A stretch of DNA of 64,000 bases, from the NCBI RefSeq assembly GCF_033880585.1, contig NZ_CP137624.1, positions 1,604,001 to 1,668,000 of the forward strand. The letters run 5' to 3'. Below the pieces are notes generated by a model. It was not told where the DNA came from and did no database searches. It worked only from the letters and a program-made list of their open reading frames with translations. Positions 19,961 to 62,800 of the stretch are shown in pieces. This stretch comes from Lysinibacillus louembei (lineage in GTDB: Bacteria > Bacillota > Bacilli > Bacillales_A > Planococcaceae). Position numbers and translations under genes: made by a program. Numbering within the stretch: position 1 is the stretch's first letter; each line of letters starts with the position of its first letter.

Positions 19961-20064
19961 TATGTGTCTTATTCATAATTTTGTTATATCTATCTTTATG
20001 TTTATGCTGAAAAAGAGCAGGAAAAAGGGTAGAATAAATAGCATTAAGAGGAGGTTGTATCAAC

Positions 20065-21369
20065 TTGAAGCAAGACAACATTTTAGTATTAGATTTGGGC
20101 AGCAGTGAGAACACGACGATTGCACGTTGGATTCGCGATTTAGGTGTGTATAGCGAGATTCATCCACACGATATTACTGCACAAAATATTGAAGATTTAA
20201 AAACAGTAAAAGGTATTATTTTGAATGGTGGAAAAAATAATATCGTGGATGGCGAAGCGATCAACGTATTAGATGAGATTTACACATTAAATATTCCAGT
20301 AATGAGCGTTAACCACCCATCAGCAAAAGCATCGAAAACGCTAGAAGCATGGCCACACGAAGAAGAAACGAAAGCTCTTTTAAAGGACTTCGTTTTCAAT
20401 ACATGTCAAGCGGAAGCAAACTGGAACATGAAAAACTTCATCGAAGACCAAATTGCGTTAGTGCGCAAGCAAGTAGGGGATAAAAAAGTACTTTTAGCCC
20501 TTTCGGGAGGCGTCGATTCATCCGTTGTTGCTGCATTATTAATTAAAGCGATTGGCAAGCAATTAGTTTGCGTGCATGTGAATCATGGCTTGATGCGTAA
20601 AAACGAATCTGAAGGCGTTATCGCAATGTTTGAAAAAGACCTTGAAGAAAACCTAATTTACGTAGATGCAAGCGAGCGCTTCTTAGGCAAGCTAAAAGGG
20701 GTAAGCGAGCCAGAGGAAAAACGCAAAATTATCGGTAATGAATTTATTCGTGTGTTTGAGGAAGAGGCACGTAAACTGGAAGGAATCGATTTCCTAGCAC
20801 AAGGAACGATCTATCCAGATATCGTAGAATCAGGCACGAAAACACATAAAGTTGTAAAATCACATCACAATGTTGGTGGACTTCCAGAAGACTTACAATT
20901 TGAATTGGTGGAGCCATTATTCCAGTTATTTAAAGATGAGGTGCGTGCATGTGGCGTAGAGCTTGGTTTACCGCATGATATGGTTTACCGTCAACCATTC
21001 CCAGGTCCGGGTCTTGGTGTGCGCTGCCTAGGTGAAATTGAAATTGATCGTCTTGAAGCAGTACGTGAATCAGATGCGATTTTACGTGAAGAATTTGCAC
21101 TTGCAGGCTTAGACCAAAAAGTGTGGCAATACTTCACAGTTGTACCAAACTTCAAATCTGTTGGTGTGCGCAACAATGAACGCACATATGAATACCCAGT
21201 TATTATTCGTGCAGTGAATACAGTAGATGCGATGACAGCAACAGTTGAGCAAATCGACTGGCCAATCCTTCTAAAAATTACTGACCGTATCATTAACGAA
21301 GTGAAAAACGTCAATCGTGTCTGCTACGACCTGTCTCCAAAGCCAGGCGGCACGATTGAGTGGGAATAA
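20065..21369 (+). CDS. GMP synthetase paralogue with a degenerate glutaminase domain
   Basis: This 434-residue protein is clearly related to GuaA but about 80 residues shorter. Residues 1-110 keep the first half of the class I glutamine amidotransferase fold, but the nucleophile loop GICYGMQ is replaced by VMSVNHPS and the FHPE His/Glu motif is deleted, so glutaminase activity should be absent. From residue 140 on, the ATP pyrophosphatase half looks intact: SGGVDSS (147-153), [12 protein letters not shown] and [16 protein letters not shown]. In the XMP-binding end, GVMGDGRTY of the neighbouring GuaA is GVRNNERTY and [10 protein letters not shown] is PKPGGTIEWE. It starts at TTG with AGAGGAGG upstream. 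It may be an ammonia-dependent GMP synthetase, an enzyme on another nucleotide, or a regulatory relic. Confidence 0.85.
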   Translation: MKQDNILVLDLGSSENTTIARWIRDLGVYSEIHPHDITAQNIEDLKTVKGIILNGGKNNIVDGEAINVLDEIYTLNIPVMSVNHPSAKASKTLEAWPHEEETKALLKDFVFNTCQAEANWNMKNFIEDQIALVRKQVGDKKVLLALSGGVDSSVVAALLIKAIGKQLVCVHVNHGLMRKNESEGVIAMFEKDLEENLIYVDASERFLGKLKGVSEPEEKRKIIGNEFIRVFEEEARKLEGIDFLAQGTIYPDIVESGTKTHKVVKSHHNVGGLPEDLQFELVEPLFQLFKDEVRACGVELGLPHDMVYRQPFPGPGLGVRCLGEIEIDRLEAVRESDAILREEFALAGLDQKVWQYFTVVPNFKSVGVRNNERTYEYPVIIRAVNTVDAMTATVEQIDWPILLKITDRIINEVKNVNRVCYDLSPKPGGTIEWE

Positions 21370-21375
21370 TTTTAA

Positions 21376-21413
21376 GCAAAAAGCTAGTCTGATTTTTTCA
21401 GACTAGCTTTTCA
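21376..21413. terminator. Bidirectional terminator between the guaA paralogue and the membrane-protein operon
   Basis: AAAAGCTAGTCTGA pairs perfectly with TCAGACTAGCTTTT around a T-rich loop. The end of the convergent membrane-protein gene lies inside the stem. Confidence 0.9.
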
Positions 21414-21945
21414 TTTCTCTATTGAGCATAAAAAATAAGTAAACTACCCCAAGCTCTACAATTAACGGGATAAAAATAATGTTTAAACGGAAGAAAATGA
21501 TACTTATCACAATAGCTACACAAATAAAAAGTGAACTATAGCGGTAACTTTTAGATTGATAAAAGAATGAATATGGTAATAAATGTGCACCATAAATAAT
21601 TGCATATGCTGGTAAAACCCACATAGGTGCTTTCATTAATAGAACAATACAAATAAGTAAATATAAAATCTGATTGTTTGTTGCAATTAATAGCCCATTA
21701 ATCAATGGATTGTCCTTATAAAATAAATTAACATTTACGATTTTGGCACAAAGAATCGAAACAGGAAATAGCAGTGCACCACAAGATAAAACGCCAATAT
21801 TTTTAATCATTATATCTAAAGGCAGCAGCGTGATAATTGTGATAACTACCCAAATAAATAGCGAGGCCATTATAAAGGGAAGTCCCTTCTTTTGTTTCTG
21901 TGCAATATCATGTAATAATACTTGTAAGCTTGTATCGAGGTTCAT
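21403..21945 (-). CDS. Hypothetical polytopic membrane protein
   Basis: This 180-residue protein has about five membrane helices. The N-terminal motif QKQKKGLPFIMASLFIWVV resembles the DUF7010 group of small membrane proteins, though I cannot confirm that. It is third in an operon after a LytTR regulator and a DUF3021 protein. In comparable LytTR/membrane-inhibitor pairs the downstream genes are the regulon. Function unknown. Confidence 0.65.
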   Translation of the reverse strand: MNLDTSLQVLLHDIAQKQKKGLPFIMASLFIWVVITIITLLPLDIMIKNIGVLSCGALLFPVSILCAKIVNVNLFYKDNPLINGLLIATNNQILYLLICIVLLMKAPMWVLPAYAIIYGAHLLPYSFFYQSKSYRYSSLFICVAIVISIIFFRLNIIFIPLIVELGVVYLFFMLNREMKS

Positions 21946-21956
21946 GTTCCGTCTCC

Positions 21957-22373
21957 TTAATGTTCTAGCGACCTATTCAAACTCTCCGCTAGTTTTTTAT
22001 TTCCATATTTTGAGAAAAAATAAAATCCAATAATATGACCAATTAATGTTATTGCTAAAATGAGCAATAAATAAGGTTTAATAAAATCAAATGCTTGCAG
22101 TGAAAACAGATAAACACTTGCTATACTGCAGGAAAAATTCAAAAAAGTGCTGATGGCAATTTTAGCTGTTACTTTTAATGTAGAGTAATTCCATAAATAA
22201 GGGTAAGCAATACCGAAAACAATTCCCATCAGAACGCTAATACCAATTAAATTCCAAACATAAAGAAAGGGAACAAATTCTTCATGAAGATGAAAAATAG
22301 TTATTAAAAAAACAATCCAAACCATACTCAAAAATGAAACATATAAAAAGCTGTTTTTTAAGTTTTTGATCAT
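21957..22373 (-). CDS. DUF3021 family membrane protein, partner of the LytTR regulator
   Basis: This 138-residue protein has four predicted membrane helices, the DUF3021 pattern. It overlaps the LytTR gene by 4 bp. In streptococci, cognate membrane proteins of stand-alone LytTR regulators (HdrM/BrsM type) hold the regulator inactive; by analogy this protein probably restrains its upstream partner. The inducing signal is unknown. Confidence 0.75.
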   Translation of the reverse strand: MIKNLKNSFLYVSFLSMVWIVFLITIFHLHEEFVPFLYVWNLIGISVLMGIVFGIAYPYLWNYSTLKVTAKIAISTFLNFSCSIASVYLFSLQAFDFIKPYLLLILAITLIGHIIGFYFFSKYGNKKLAESLNRSLEH

Positions 22374-22810
22374 AGCAACTTCTCCTTAATAAATTTTGCA
22401 TAATGTCTACTAACGACATATTTATTTTGCTGCTTTGTAATAACTTCCAATCTAGCGTGACTTCCTGAAGCAAATGAATGTATTTGATTTAAATTTAAAA
22501 TCATGGAATTGTTAATTCTAACTAACCCGAATGGTTCCAAATAAGATAATTCCTTCAAAATTTTATTCAGCAATAGCTGTGTACCATCTAGTAAGAAGAT
22601 TTTAGTGAAATGACCAGATGCTTCAATTACTTCGATATTACCCACTTCAATCATCACCTGACGATTTGTTTTGAAGTCTGTTGCGTTTAATGTAATGGAT
22701 TGAAAAAAGCGTTGTTCAAATGTTGATAGCAATTCTTTATTCGATGGATTACTAATAATCTCAATTTCAGAGGCTGGCTGATTGCTTTTCCAAATATAGC
22801 TGAATTTCAT
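22370..22810 (-). CDS. LytTR-family DNA-binding regulator without receiver domain
   Basis: In this 146-residue protein the C-terminal ~100 residues form a LytTR DNA-binding domain (VGNIEVIEASGHFTKIFLLD, then LVRINNSMILNLNQIHSF and HARLEVITKQQNKYVVSR). The first ~45 residues are a short extension with no receiver Asp, so activity is not phosphorylation-dependent. First gene of a three-gene operon with a DUF3021 membrane protein. A pair of direct repeats 21 bp apart lies upstream and may be its own binding site. Confidence 0.88.
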   Translation of the reverse strand: MKFSYIWKSNQPASEIEIISNPSNKELLSTFEQRFFQSITLNATDFKTNRQVMIEVGNIEVIEASGHFTKIFLLDGTQLLLNKILKELSYLEPFGLVRINNSMILNLNQIHSFASGSHARLEVITKQQNKYVVSRHYAKFIKEKLL

Positions 22811-22871
22811 GTTGTTCTCCTTTCTGTTTTCATCGTAGCAATCCTCTTCAGAACTTACGATAAGTTTTCGT

Positions 22872-22902
22872 TTTGTTGCAAAAAAAGTAGACTTTGTTAC
22901 AA
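22872..22902 (-). promoter_or_regulatory. Direct repeats spaced 21 bp: candidate LytTR binding site
   Basis: TTTGTTGCAA (22872-22881) and TTTGTTACAA (22893-22902) are direct repeats with starts exactly 21 bp apart, about two helical turns. This is the arrangement LytTR dimers recognise. They lie 61-92 bp upstream of the LytTR start codon and also face the guaA promoter region. Confidence 0.55.
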
Positions 22903-22936
22903 CATTACACCATCTAAAAAGCCAAAGTGTATTTAA

Positions 22937-22966
22937 TTGTAAAGTGAATTAAAAAAAGAATATTCT
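22937..22966 (+). promoter_or_regulatory. Candidate guaA promoter
   Basis: TTGTAA (22937-22942) and TATTCT (22961-22966) are separated by 18 bp. This would give a leader of about 150 nt before the guaA start codon. Confidence 0.4.
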
Positions 22967-23047
22967 ATCAATTTTACTAGTAGTTGATTTTCTTTTTCGC
23001 AACGTTTAAAATTTAAAAAATAAAATGTAGTGTACTGGTGATACTAT

Positions 23048-23081
23048 AAACGCGTAGAAAGCATAATTTCCACGCGTTTTT
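23048..23081 (+). terminator. Terminator-like hairpin in the guaA leader (possible attenuator)
   Basis: AAACGCGT-a-GAAA pairs with TTTC-c-ACGCGTTT, followed by TTTT, only 44 bp before the guaA start codon. There is no gene upstream on this strand for it to terminate except the guaA transcript itself. A weaker hairpin, ATCAA...TTGAT, lies earlier in the leader. No purine aptamer is recognisable. Confidence 0.65.
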
Positions 23082-23124
23082 CGTGGTTGTAGACTGCATT
23101 AATACATTAGAAGAGGTGAAAGTT

Positions 23125-24675
23125 GTGGCAACTCCTTTATTAAAAGAGCAAGAAAAGATTGTCGTTCTTGATTTCGGAAGTCAATTTAATCAATTAATTA
23201 CGCGTCGCATTCGTGAATTTGGTGTGTTCTCAGAATTACATCCACATACAGTAACAGCGCAAGAAATTAAAGAAATGAACGCTGTAGGTATCGTATTTTC
23301 AGGCGGCCCAAATTCAGTTTATGATGACCAAGCATTCAAAGTAGACCCAGCTATTTTTGACTTAGGCTTACCGATTTTCGGGATTTGCTACGGCATGCAA
23401 TTAATGGCCCATACACAAGGTGGGAAAGTAGAAAGCGCAGAGACACGTGAATACGGCAAAGCAGAAATTAATGTAGTGACAGAGGGCAAATTATTCGGTG
23501 ATTTACCGAAAGAGCAAGTAGTATGGATGAGCCATGGTGACCACGTAACAGAAGTACCAGCAGGCTTTGAAATCATTGCAACAAGCCCAGCATGTCCAAT
23601 TGCGGCTATGGCGAACGTAGAGCGCAAACTTTATGCAGTACAATTCCACCCCGAAGTACGTCACTCTGTATACGGCAATGACTTACTGAAAAATTTCGTG
23701 TTTGATATTTGTAACGCAAAGGGCGATTGGTCGATGGCAAACTTCATCGATATGGAAATTGCAAAAATTCGCGAGCAAGTCGGCGATAAGCAAGTTCTTT
23801 GTGCACTATCAGGCGGCGTAGATTCTTCAGTAGTAGCTGTATTAATCCACAAAGCAATCGGCGATCAACTAACATGTATGTTCGTAGACCACAACTTAAA
23901 CCGTAAAGGCGAAGTCGAGCAAGTGATGAAAACTTTCACTGAAGATTTCGATATGAAAGTCATCAAAATCGATGCACGTGAACGCTTTATGAACAAGCTA
24001 AAAGGCGTATCAGATCCAGAACAAAAACGCAAAATTATTGGCAATGAATTCATCTATGTATTCGACGAAGAATCAGCAAAGCTAGAGGACATGGACTTCT
24101 TAGCACAGGGCACTCTGTACACAGACATCATCGAATCAGGCACAGCAACAGCCCAAACAATTAAATCGCACCACAATGTAGGCGGATTACCAGAAGATAT
24201 GAAGTTCCAACTAATCGAGCCATTAAATACACTATTTAAAGATGAGGTACGTGCACTAGGCTTAGAGCTAGGCCTTCCAGAAGCAGTCGTATGGCGTCAA
24301 CCATTCCCAGGTCCAGGCTTAGGTATCCGTGTACTTGGCGAAGTAACAGAGGAAAAATTAGAAATCGTACGTGAAGCTGACTACATTTTACGTGAAGAAA
24401 TCAAAAATGCAGGTTTAGAGCGCGACATTTGGCAATACTTCGCAGTCCTACCAGATATCCGTTCAGTAGGCGTAATGGGCGATGGCCGTACATACGACTA
24501 TGCAATCGGCATCCGCGGCGTAACATCCATTGACGGCATGACATCAGACTGGGCGCGCATCCCATACGATGTGCTAGAGAAAATTTCAGTACGCATTGTC
24601 AATGAAGTAACAGGCGTTAACCGTGTGCTGTATGATATTACATCGAAGCCACCTGCGACGATTGAGTGGGAGTAG
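23125..24675 (+). CDS. guaA: GMP synthase (glutamine-hydrolysing)
   Basis: This 516-residue two-domain enzyme has a glutaminase domain with Cys88 (GICYGMQ) and His175/Glu177 (FHPE), then the ATP pyrophosphatase with SGGVDSS (229-235), and a C-terminal dimerisation domain ending [10 protein letters not shown]. It aminates XMP to GMP using glutamine and ATP. The GTG at 23125, with AGAGGTG upstream, gives the usual length; the frame continues to 23083 but that part would begin inside the leader hairpin. Its 3' end is the integration site of the downstream island. Confidence 0.96.
24661..24671. repeat. attL-like core at the guaA 3' end
   Basis: ATTGAGTGGGA, encoding the IEWE end of GuaA, recurs at 40240-40250 beyond the island and next to another integrase remnant. 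It also occurs at 21355-21365 in the guaA paralogue. GuaA 3' ends are a known target of tyrosine integrases. The true crossover length is not known. Confidence 0.6.
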
Positions 24676-24742: not shown

Positions 24743-25933
24743 TTATTGCACTTTTTGTTTCTGCTTTCCTAAATAGTCCACAGTAAATTGATTTTTAGGG
24801 GAGGAATCATAGTTTTGCTTTGTCTCCTTAAAGGAGATGATCCCATTTAATTTGTTAGCTACTTCAAAATTACTGTTAGGATAAAGATGTCCATATGTTC
24901 CCAAAGTAGTTTCGATATCTTCATGTCCTAGACGATCTTTAATAATGAGCGGGTTTTCTCCCATACTGATTAACAAGGAAGCATGAGAGTGACGCAGCCC
25001 ATGAATTCTGATACGATGAATACCAGCCAACTTGGCATAGCGTTCAATAGCATATGCTAGCGTATGTTTTTGCGTAGGAATACCATTGTAGCTCATCACA
25101 AAGTCGGTCTTAATCAGACTTTGTTGCACATTTTTCCATTCAGTTAAAACATTCAATGTACATTTATCTAATACAATGTGTCTAACACTTGCTTTTGTTT
25201 TTGGTTCAACAAATCTGTAATTGGTTTGGTTCTTGTAATAAAGATTTTTGTTGATGGTTAGTACTCCTGAATCAAAATCAACATCCTCCCATTGAATGGC
25301 GGTAGCTTCTCCGATTCGCATTCCAGTCATAAACAAGAACCATAAAGAAACAAAAAGGAAATGTTGATAGTAATCCTTTTTATAAATGAAAGAGATTACT
25401 TTTTCAAATTCTTCTTTTGTCCAGAATTCAATTTTTGTTTTTTGTTTTTTTACATTTCCAATAATCTTAGAAGGATTTGTCGCTGTAATGCCTAGTACAA
25501 TTGCTCTATCCATTGCGACAGAGAATAATCCTTGAACCGCTCTTACATATGAAGGCTTAAGTTTTTTTGATAACTTCAACTGCCAATTCTGCACATGAAT
25601 TGGTTCAATATCATCTACTGCTAATTTATAAAAATAAGGGAAATGTTTTTTTACAGTCGGTAATCGGTTATCATAAGTTCTAAGCTTTACTCTTGTTTTA
25701 TACCAAGGTAGAAAAATATCTAAGATATAATGTTCAAACATCATTTTATCTTTAGTATCGCTTAGATCTTCTGGATTCATTAATATTAATTTTGAATATT
25801 CTTCTCTTGCTTCTTTTTTAGTTTTGAAACCACTACGGTATTTCTGAATCTTCTTTCCTTTAGAGTCATAACCTAGATTAGCACGAAAATAGTAAGTACC
25901 ATTTTTAGCTTTTTTAATGGGGTCTTTAGACAT
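24743..25933 (-). CDS. Tyrosine recombinase / phage-type integrase
   Basis: This 396-residue integrase has an N-terminal AP2-like arm-binding domain (GTYYFRANLGYDSKGKKIQK), a SAM-like core-binding domain (about residues 62-165) and a catalytic domain. The catalytic residues are Arg in MTGMRIGEA, HGLRHSH (His-x-x-Arg), LGHEDIETTLGTYGHLY (His and the nucleophile Tyr). It appears intact and points towards the guaA end, ending 68 bp from it. Two other, broken copies of this gene type lie at 36.3 and 40.3 kb. Confidence 0.93.
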   Translation of the reverse strand: MSKDPIKKAKNGTYYFRANLGYDSKGKKIQKYRSGFKTKKEAREEYSKLILMNPEDLSDTKDKMMFEHYILDIFLPWYKTRVKLRTYDNRLPTVKKHFPYFYKLAVDDIEPIHVQNWQLKLSKKLKPSYVRAVQGLFSVAMDRAIVLGITATNPSKIIGNVKKQKTKIEFWTKEEFEKVISFIYKKDYYQHFLFVSLWFLFMTGMRIGEATAIQWEDVDFDSGVLTINKNLYYKNQTNYRFVEPKTKASVRHIVLDKCTLNVLTEWKNVQQSLIKTDFVMSYNGIPTQKHTLAYAIERYAKLAGIHRIRIHGLRHSHASLLISMGENPLIIKDRLGHEDIETTLGTYGHLYPNSNFEVANKLNGIISFKETKQNYDSSPKNQFTVDYLGKQKQKVQ

Positions 25934-26280: not shown

Positions 26281-26600
26281 GAACTACAACTTCTCCCAAA
26301 TCAAATGATGAATAAGCAATCGAACAGCTTTGGTTAAGCTCACGGGAATTTCACCCCCGCATGGTTCGCATGCAGCTATACCCATTGCCTGCGGCACTCT
26401 AAACGCTCGGGCTGTGGCTGTACAGGAGTATCATTATCTCGATAGAGAAGTCATGGCAGTGACTTGTCCAAAAGACACTTACGGATCACTGAAAAGAATC
26501 GCTAGTTTTGCATTATCTACAAAGTCATGGCGTATCAGTCCGTCAGCTCAATCTCTACCGAAACGTATTCGATTACTTTTTATTTAGTTGTCAAAGAACA
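26281..26600 (-). ncRNA. Candidate structured RNA or leader within the integrative element
   Basis: This 550-bp gap between the Orf8-like and DUF3173 genes has no credible gene but is rich in short perfect hairpins: AGCTT/AAGCT (about 26327-26341), GGG-AATTTCA-CCC, GCATG-GTTCG-CATGC (about 26359-26373) and CTGTACAG. It is also visibly more GC-rich than its flanks. On the minus strand it would be transcribed into DUF3173 and int, with a TTGACA at 26594-26589. I do not recognise an RNA family. It might instead be a recombination or accessory DNA site. Confidence 0.35.
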
Positions 26601-62514: not shown

Positions 62515-62647
62515 ATTGTTATTTGTTTAACAGTAATTTGATTTTCTAAAATATTTTTTACGAACTTTATCTGTGTAAAACAAAAAAATGTTCGGAAATG
62601 AGTTGAAAAACAGAAAGTGAGGTGATATATTATTGAATGTAAATTAA

Positions 62648-62800
62648 ATAACGTCGTCGTATAATAGCGGGAATAGGCTCGCAAGTATCTACCAAATCAC
62701 CGTAAATGATTTGACTACGATTGAAGCAAATTTGTATTGTAATATACAAATACTTTATTCGTAGACATGTCACTAAAAGGCATGTCTTTGTTTTATTTCC
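62648..62800 (+). promoter_or_regulatory. Guanine riboswitch (purine aptamer plus terminator)
   Basis: The aptamer at about 62650-62725 has the conserved J1/2 TATAATAG, the J2/3 TATCTACC, the P3 arms CAAATCA and TGATTTG around CCGTAAA, and the 3' GACTACGA. The C in GACTA predicts guanine/hypoxanthine rather than adenine specificity. An AT-rich hairpin ATTTGTAT/ATACAAAT follows, then the terminator AGACATG (62763-62769) / CATGTCT (62781-62787) with T-rich tail. Guanine binding should switch off the downstream permease. Confidence 0.93.

Follow-up and report, generated by a model that had tools for sequence, protein, structure and literature searches.

A short GuaA without its glutaminase active site in Lysinibacillus louembei, predicted to be a GMP synthetase working on free ammonia

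The window, a stretch of 64,000 nucleotides of Lysinibacillus louembei DNA, carries at 20065..21369 (+ strand) a short guaA gene, whose 434-aa product (P0001) is predicted, with a probability of about 0.86, to be a GMP synthetase that aminates its substrate with free ammonia. The protein has kept the synthetase half; the catalytic residues of the glutaminase are lost, and its fold is shorter by about 80 residues. Since a short form is the only GMP synthetase found in some relatives, it most likely uses free ammonia directly.

The short guaA gene, its protein and its surroundings

The gene was assigned from its ORF, Pfam and NCBIfam matches and homologues. Its frame is open throughout the 434 codons from a TTG start, and the ribosome-binding site AGAGGAGG (20047..20054, + strand) was read 10 nt before that start, as had been predicted. 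Residues 1-82 (20065..20310, +) correspond to the N-terminal half of the GATase fold, including helix 1, and Pfam GATase (PF00117) covers residues 7-82 only (profile positions 1-78 of 190). When aligned with the normal GuaA of the window, the nucleophile region reads PVMSVNHPS and the stretch with FHPE is missing, so that the replaced Cys loop and the deletion of about 80 residues described in the original prediction were both seen; Cys, His and Glu of the class I GATase triad are all absent. The score against the NCBIfam model of the glutaminase half (TIGR00888) was 53.9 bits, below the cut-off of 172.15, and that against the model of the C-terminal half (TIGR00884) was 455.6 (cut-off 338.75). 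The protein also passes the whole-protein model NF000848 (563 bits, cut-off 400), and annotation by that model would therefore misname it 'glutamine-hydrolyzing'.

The ATP pyrophosphatase (ATPPase) core was found intact, as claimed earlier, with the P-loop SGGVDSS (residues 147-153; 20503..20523, +; invariant in 38/38 aligned short forms) and a complete GMP_synt_C domain (92/92, Pfam). The catalytic D252 and E255 and the lid residues K265, H267, H268 and N269 (20818..20871, +), which follow the K-x-H-H-N pattern and are likewise invariant in 38/38, were aligned with Pf residues D371, E374, K386, H388, H389 and N390, respectively; essential or important roles are known for the Plasmodium and Methanocaldococcus equivalents (PMC4673825, PMC10526850). 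The lid reads VKSHHN, and valine takes the place of isoleucine in most short forms aligned; the literature motif is IK(T/S)HHN, its isoleucine being given as invariant (PMC10526850). The XMP loop (21163..21189, +) reads GVRNNERTY, with the MGD of the normal GVMGDGRTY replaced and the arginine kept as R373, and the C-terminal XMP-binding tail (21337..21366, +) reads PKPGGTIEWE. Both were thus altered as first described, but R373 and, in the tail, K426 and E432 are the same as in the normal GuaA and do not vary in 38/38. The XMP-binding Arg, Lys and Glu are represented by R418, K426 and E432, and their Pf equivalents are reported as essential (PMC10526850). An AlphaFold model of the protein had a pLDDT of 85.9 and a pTM of 0.86, with block means of 87-96 for the remnant (residues 1-82) and pLDDT below 50 for the lid (263-271), and its 40 best PDB matches were GMP synthetase chains.

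Upstream of the short gene lie MoxR-type and transglutaminase-type genes (Pfam), and 1.8 kb downstream lies the normal two-domain guaA (23125..24675, +; P0002, 516 aa, triad intact by Pfam, NCBIfam and alignment), which agrees with the predicted position between the MoxR genes and guaA. The two GuaA proteins share 61% identity over the synthetase half. Just after the short gene comes an intrinsic-terminator-like hairpin (21379..21411, +; terminator scan, three such sites found vs 1.8 expected in shuffles). The promoter scan of the window performed no better than shuffles, and the Rfam scan gave no riboswitch upstream of the short guaA. On the - strand between the two guaA genes (21403-22810) lie a gene for a DUF7010 protein, an ORF that Pfam left unmatched and a gene for a LytTR regulator. 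Other features of the window are a phage-type integrase gene directly 3' of the normal guaA (24743-25933, -; Pfam), a purine riboswitch at 62637-62737 (+; 79 bits, Rfam) and an Rfam pemK RNA match at 26340-26437 (-; 59.1 bits vs the gathering score of 34.8).

The short guaA and the three ORFs between the two guaA genes make up a block of about 3.1 kb (19962..23108) without counterpart in the conspecific genome G061, in which 267 other bases occupy the place. The flanks of G061 and the window are 98.9% identical upstream and 91-92% at guaA, so the guaA side and the upstream side differ in history. In the window's genus, the short gene was found in three of five genomes, the conspecific being without it. 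Besides the normal GuaA, the window's genome encodes glutamine synthetase and an intact PurQ and has a gene of GltB strength. Given these and the conspecific without the gene, the short guaA is judged dispensable in this strain; with glutamine synthetase, the GltB-strength gene and a normal PurQ kept, its product would be an accessory enzyme there. A PF01645 match was present in the window's genome and in both genomes of its genus without short guaA, and was not obtained for the other two carriers in the genus (G001 and G003).

Distribution, selection and origin of the short clade

Whole-query matches in a scan of GTDB r220 (best 80 of at least 586 relatives) came from Lachnospiraceae and further Clostridia, along with Erysipelotrichia-like assemblies and a few others. 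In the alignment of 38 short-form members (426-438 aa), two belong to the same bacterial family as the window (94 and 91% identity to the window protein) and 35 others were 63-76% identical to it over the whole length. Invariant in 38/38 were D252, E255, K265, H267, H268, N269, K290, R373, R418, K426 and E432 and, in the remnant, D10, G12, N16, A20, R21, R24, Y29, S30, E31 and I32.

The window's family was sampled with 253 genomes (at least 90% complete, 19 genera). The short clade was present in 23 of them, from five genera, at 91-100% identity to the window protein, and a different shortened form was present in three further genomes (58-60% identity). No stop was found inside any short-clade match listed among the 253 genomes. 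For 20 distinct window-clade sequences, the median dN/dS was 0.083 in residues 1-122 and 0.031 in the rest (median dS 0.96 and 1.23, respectively). The short GuaA clade is under strong purifying selection, as the undamaged frame had led the original prediction to suppose.

Trees built on the synthetase half recovered the short clade as one fully supported group, the kind of conserved clade that the original prediction had asked to look for. Copies from the window's family branch among those of Clostridia, with poorly supported inner branches, so transfer of the short guaA from Clostridia is likely, though not certain. Because the window protein is closer to the other short forms (63-76% over the whole length) than to the neighbouring GuaA (61% over the synthetase half), it most likely arrived already without glutaminase. 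The original view of a paralogue that lost its active site therefore misleads here: the triad is missing, but the loss probably preceded arrival.

In the family of G075 (Lachnospiraceae type, 296 genomes), the 430-aa form was found in 43 genomes at E <= 1e-200 among the matches listed, and 37 of these 43 had a second GuaA match, again among the matches listed. At least 40 of the 296 genomes had a form whose match begins only at about residue 120, with frames mostly of 327-371 codons. An even shorter GMP synthetase, about 330 aa long and lacking any N-terminal domain, was seen at four Lachnospiraceae-type loci (L092, L093, L095 and L110), and such forms show XMP-loop variants such as GVRDGKRYEG. 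Among 39 genomes from other sources with short forms, nine gave no full-length GuaA match, several being metagenome assemblies; five genomes of the class sample gave no glutaminase match. At 56 loci, in 54 of which the gene itself was clustered, no conserved operon partner of the short guaA was found. The Clostridia copies instead had a repressor-like family nearby at 13/56 loci, an integrase-like one at 11/56 and both at 9/56 (functions assigned by eye), a pattern that fits the 3' end of guaA serving as an integration site.

Short GuaA as sole copy and erosion of native GuaA in the genus that holds Sporosarcina

A shortened GuaA was the sole GuaA match in 13 of the 253 family genomes (10 with the short clade and three with a native deletion form), all of them in the genus that holds Sporosarcina (g3; Sporosarcina sp. 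ACRSM), where each of 64 genomes gave one GuaA match at E <= 1e-60. Of these 13, G281, G282 and G278 are one-contig assemblies and G249 was covered in part. A GuaA-type glutaminase over the TIGR00888 cut-off was found in 0/13, vs 14/14 controls; in two of the 13, a whole protein of the glutaminase fold exists separately and scores about 103 bits (cut-off 172). Short and normal GuaA coexist in 13 family genomes, the window's included, and in all 11 of them with both positions available, the short guaA stands just upstream of guaA on the same strand.

The short guaA at L037 (G271) and L038 (G232), and likewise in the one-contig genomes G281 and G282, has a purine riboswitch and next rRNA behind it, with a purine permease gene between the last two in L037 (Pfam); at the Caryophanon loci, the normal guaA stands between the short guaA and the riboswitch and rRNA. 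L038, deposited as Arthrobacter beigongshangensis, belongs to the same genus as Sporosarcina sp. ACRSM. A purine riboswitch directly upstream of a glutaminase-less guaA was found in 7/17 family genomes examined (5/15 with the short clade and 2/2 with native deletion forms) and at 0/4 Clostridia loci examined. The specificity position was C in 8/8 sequences read (two from one genome), and C at this position marks the guanine class.

The native GuaA of g3 is itself eroded. Among 63 g3 GuaA read, nine belong to the short clade, 45 are native with the catalytic Cys replaced or deleted and nine keep the Cys; glutaminase residues are thus lost in 54/63, and one of the nine Cys-keeping proteins (G284) has lost His and Glu. 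Both GuaA read from g9 are also without the Cys. Three different in-frame internal deletions of native GuaA were distinguished (G241; G278 with G236; G279 with G255; loci L129, L127/L130, L128/L131, L213 and L214), each sparing the N-terminal half and the linker. The ratio of divergence in the glutaminase region to that in the synthetase half was 3.66 (about 3.7-fold) in 39 full-length Cys-less g3 proteins, computed without five short-clade rows and three gappy rows, 3.1 in the nine Cys-keeping g3 proteins and 1.8 in 27 normal relatives. These ratios suggest that constraint relaxed before the Cys was lost.

The MGD loop was found in 0/63 g3 GuaA. In 209 sequences sorted by Cys and loop, 88 had Cys with MGD, nine Cys with another loop, 111 no Cys with another loop and one no Cys with MGD, the last being from a truncated contig; in these sequences, the XMP-loop change accompanies the loss of the glutaminase. 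The short clade and the Sporosarcina clade were separate in the careful tree and joined in 2% of bootstrap trees. A single joined clade was not rejected (AU p = 0.24 with 73 rows; p = 0.73 with 105 rows, the joined tree having the better score there), so the Cys-by-loop table is no count of independent events, and by these tests one shared origin of both glutaminase losses would be compatible with the sequences.

Other glutamine enzymes were examined in the same genus. PurQ was sought in 18 stretches of 20 kb and found in 11 of 12 from g3 (L241-L247 and L249-L252) and three of six others (NCBIfam identity from scans of two). In all 11 g3 stretches the Cys of GVCNGFQ is Gly and the His of PHPER is Leu; both residues are intact in 3/3 normal relatives, the window's genome included. 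In CarA from five short-only g3 genomes (L236-L240), compared with one another and with an E. coli entry as the only outside reference, the Cys is Gly and HPE is kept in 5/5. The E. coli entry has Ser at the Cys position and is presumably the C269S mutant, the wild-type residue being Cys. The PurF Cys is kept in 11/11 g3 proteins read, and ten other glutaminase-fold hydrolases of g3 keep theirs.

Glutamine synthetase (PF00120, E <= 1e-20) was absent from 26/64 g3 genomes (eight of these absences by elimination, among the matches listed), 1/2 g9 genomes and 1/187 others, that is, from 2/189 family genomes outside g3. The absence in g3 agrees with the reported physiology of S. pasteurii, which is described as having neither glutamine synthetase nor glutamate synthase activity and as requiring ammonia; strain DSM33 is reported to have grown without added glutamine, and in urea medium without an added ammonia source (PMC7775470).

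Three correlates of the erosion were tried and rejected. The absence of glutamine synthetase tracks the genus, but inside g3 it runs opposite to the loss of the GuaA Cys: all nine Cys-keeping genomes are without it (3/9 by elimination, among the matches listed) vs 17/55 others. Urease was found in 12/13 short-only vs 39/51 other g3 genomes (p = 0.27). GltB-strength matches, taken for GOGAT, occurred in 2/64 g3 genomes, but g15, with normal GuaA, also had none.

With moderate confidence, we favour the reading that the whole genus moved nucleotide synthesis from glutamine to free ammonia while its GuaA eroded stepwise. Under that same reading, the XMP loop would have changed first, the Cys would have been lost next, and in the end several different internal deletions would have arisen or the mobile short GuaA of this window would have replaced the native one. 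The loop change may let GuaA work well on free ammonia.

Proposed function, alternatives and meaning

The short GuaA is proposed to be an active GMP synthetase that cannot hydrolyse glutamine. Its synthetase half would bind ATP and XMP and form adenyl-XMP with the usual residues, and free ammonia, supplied from the solvent and not via a glutaminase, would aminate this intermediate. Like other GuaA proteins, it would dimerise through the C-terminal domain. The GuaA enzymes characterised to date are reported to accept external ammonia (PMC10526850), and a nucleophile mutant of Plasmodium GuaA keeps NH4Cl-dependent activity, with a Km for NH4Cl of 8 mM vs 19 mM for the wild type (PMC4673825). The most likely reason for keeping the GATase remnant is the packing of its first helix against those helices on which the catalytic Asp and Glu sit; helix 1 of the GATase domain is a known interdomain interface (PMC10526850), and support of the catalytic helix by this part of the remnant is offered as a hypothesis, as is an improvement of ammonia use by the changed XMP loop. 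In the window's strain, the protein would be an extra, horizontally acquired isoenzyme beside the normal guaA product, useful when ammonia is plentiful or glutamine scarce, and most genomes of the Sporosarcina-holding genus would by now depend on this enzyme or on a native GuaA in eroded form. Ammonia use, the role of the remnant, the direction of transfer and the benefit are all inferred.

Four other explanations were weighed. A separate glutaminase encoded elsewhere might pass on glutamine-derived ammonia, as archaeal GuaAa does to GuaAb; archaeal ATPPase subunits are described as working in two-subunit systems (PMC10526850), and short-only genomes do hold sub-threshold glutaminase-fold proteins, the two whole ones noted above included. 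This is improbable, given that no GuaA-type glutaminase exceeded the cut-off in the 13 short-only genomes, that no neighbour of glutaminase kind recurred among the 56 loci (judged by eye) and that the CarA and PurQ of g3 are themselves without the Cys where read. Equally improbable is an inactive subunit that would form mixed dimers with normal GuaA and tune or protect it, a role raised in the original prediction. The coexistence of both genes in 13 genomes, mostly near each other on one strand, would suit such a partner, as would the retention of the C-terminal domain, through which GuaA is reported to dimerise (PMC9312489); but no normal GuaA was found in the 13 short-only genomes, which counts against the earlier suggestion, and the catalytic residues checked are invariant, of which an inactive partner would need none.

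Amination of another nucleotide, also suggested at the outset, could account for the replaced MGD and for the valine of the lid at a position given as invariant (PMC10526850). It is less probable still: the XMP-binding residues checked (R373 of the loop; R418, K426 and E432 of the tail) are invariant, similar loop changes occur in full-length GuaA proteins that are the sole match in their own genome, and guanine-class riboswitches precede several copies. A functionless decay product of a recent guaA duplication is the least credible of all. The patchy distribution (3/5 genomes of the window's genus, with a conspecific lacking the gene) speaks for it, but the clade is conserved with a median dN/dS of 0.03-0.08, which excludes the single-strain decay product or recent deletion allele that had been named as the refuting case, and the listed matches are free of stops and have Clostridia homologues at 63-76% identity. 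Taken together, the sole-copy status, the conserved residues, the selection and the riboswitches fit poorly with a regulatory role, with decay or with amination of another nucleotide. GMP synthesis from free ammonia, the remaining proposal of the original prediction, is supported by the shortened form being the sole GuaA in 13 genomes and by the invariant residues, and is the preferred reading.

The short form was compared with known systems. With two-domain GuaA (EC 6.3.5.2, NF000848) it shares the fold, the synthetase half, the P-loop, the Asp and Glu, the lid HHN and the XMP tail, and it differs in having no triad, about 80 glutaminase residues fewer and the MGD replaced. Archaeal GuaAb (6jp9, 2dpl) is likewise a synthetase without attached glutaminase, and the model matched 6jp9 with a TM-score of 0.93 on the target; unlike GuaAb, whose chain starts directly at the ATPPase, the short form keeps half a GATase fold (residues 1-82), and no separate GuaAa-type glutaminase over the cut-off was found in any of the 13 short-only genomes. 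NadE, a single-domain NAD synthetase, performs a related PP-loop amidation with ammonia as physiological donor, and its ammonia form has been argued to be ancestral (PMC3376133), whereas the short GuaA would have lost its glutaminase. CPS1 retains a dead glutaminase-like domain (Cys to Ser294) and uses free ammonia, and frog CPS1 keeps the triad yet is unable to use glutamine, to which the triad-keeping g3 genomes may be alike (PMC4655335); CPS1 is, however, another enzyme and fold with the domain at full length. Archaeal PurF' without the N-terminal Cys has been suggested to be an ammonia-dependent purine enzyme without glutaminase nucleophile (PMC3261824), but it belongs to another enzyme and glutaminase class and occurs alongside normal PurF. 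GuaA was 100% fused, with none glutaminase-free, in a 2012 table of 730 genomes (PMC3376133), and among the papers listed in searches on glutaminase-less or ammonia-dependent GMP synthetase, Sporosarcina glutamine enzymes and glutamine-independent purine synthesis, none describes the form in its title or abstract opening.

In textbooks, GMP synthetase of bacteria is a glutamine enzyme with both parts fused; the short family shows that nature can undo this fusion. The family provides ready-made sequences for testing the coupling of glutaminase and synthetase, and it points to a loop in the synthetase half whose changes go along with those of the glutaminase. The public name 'glutamine-hydrolyzing' (NF000848) misfits these proteins. 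For S. pasteurii, the biocement organism, a genomic explanation is offered of the described ammonia requirement and missing enzyme activities (PMC7775470).
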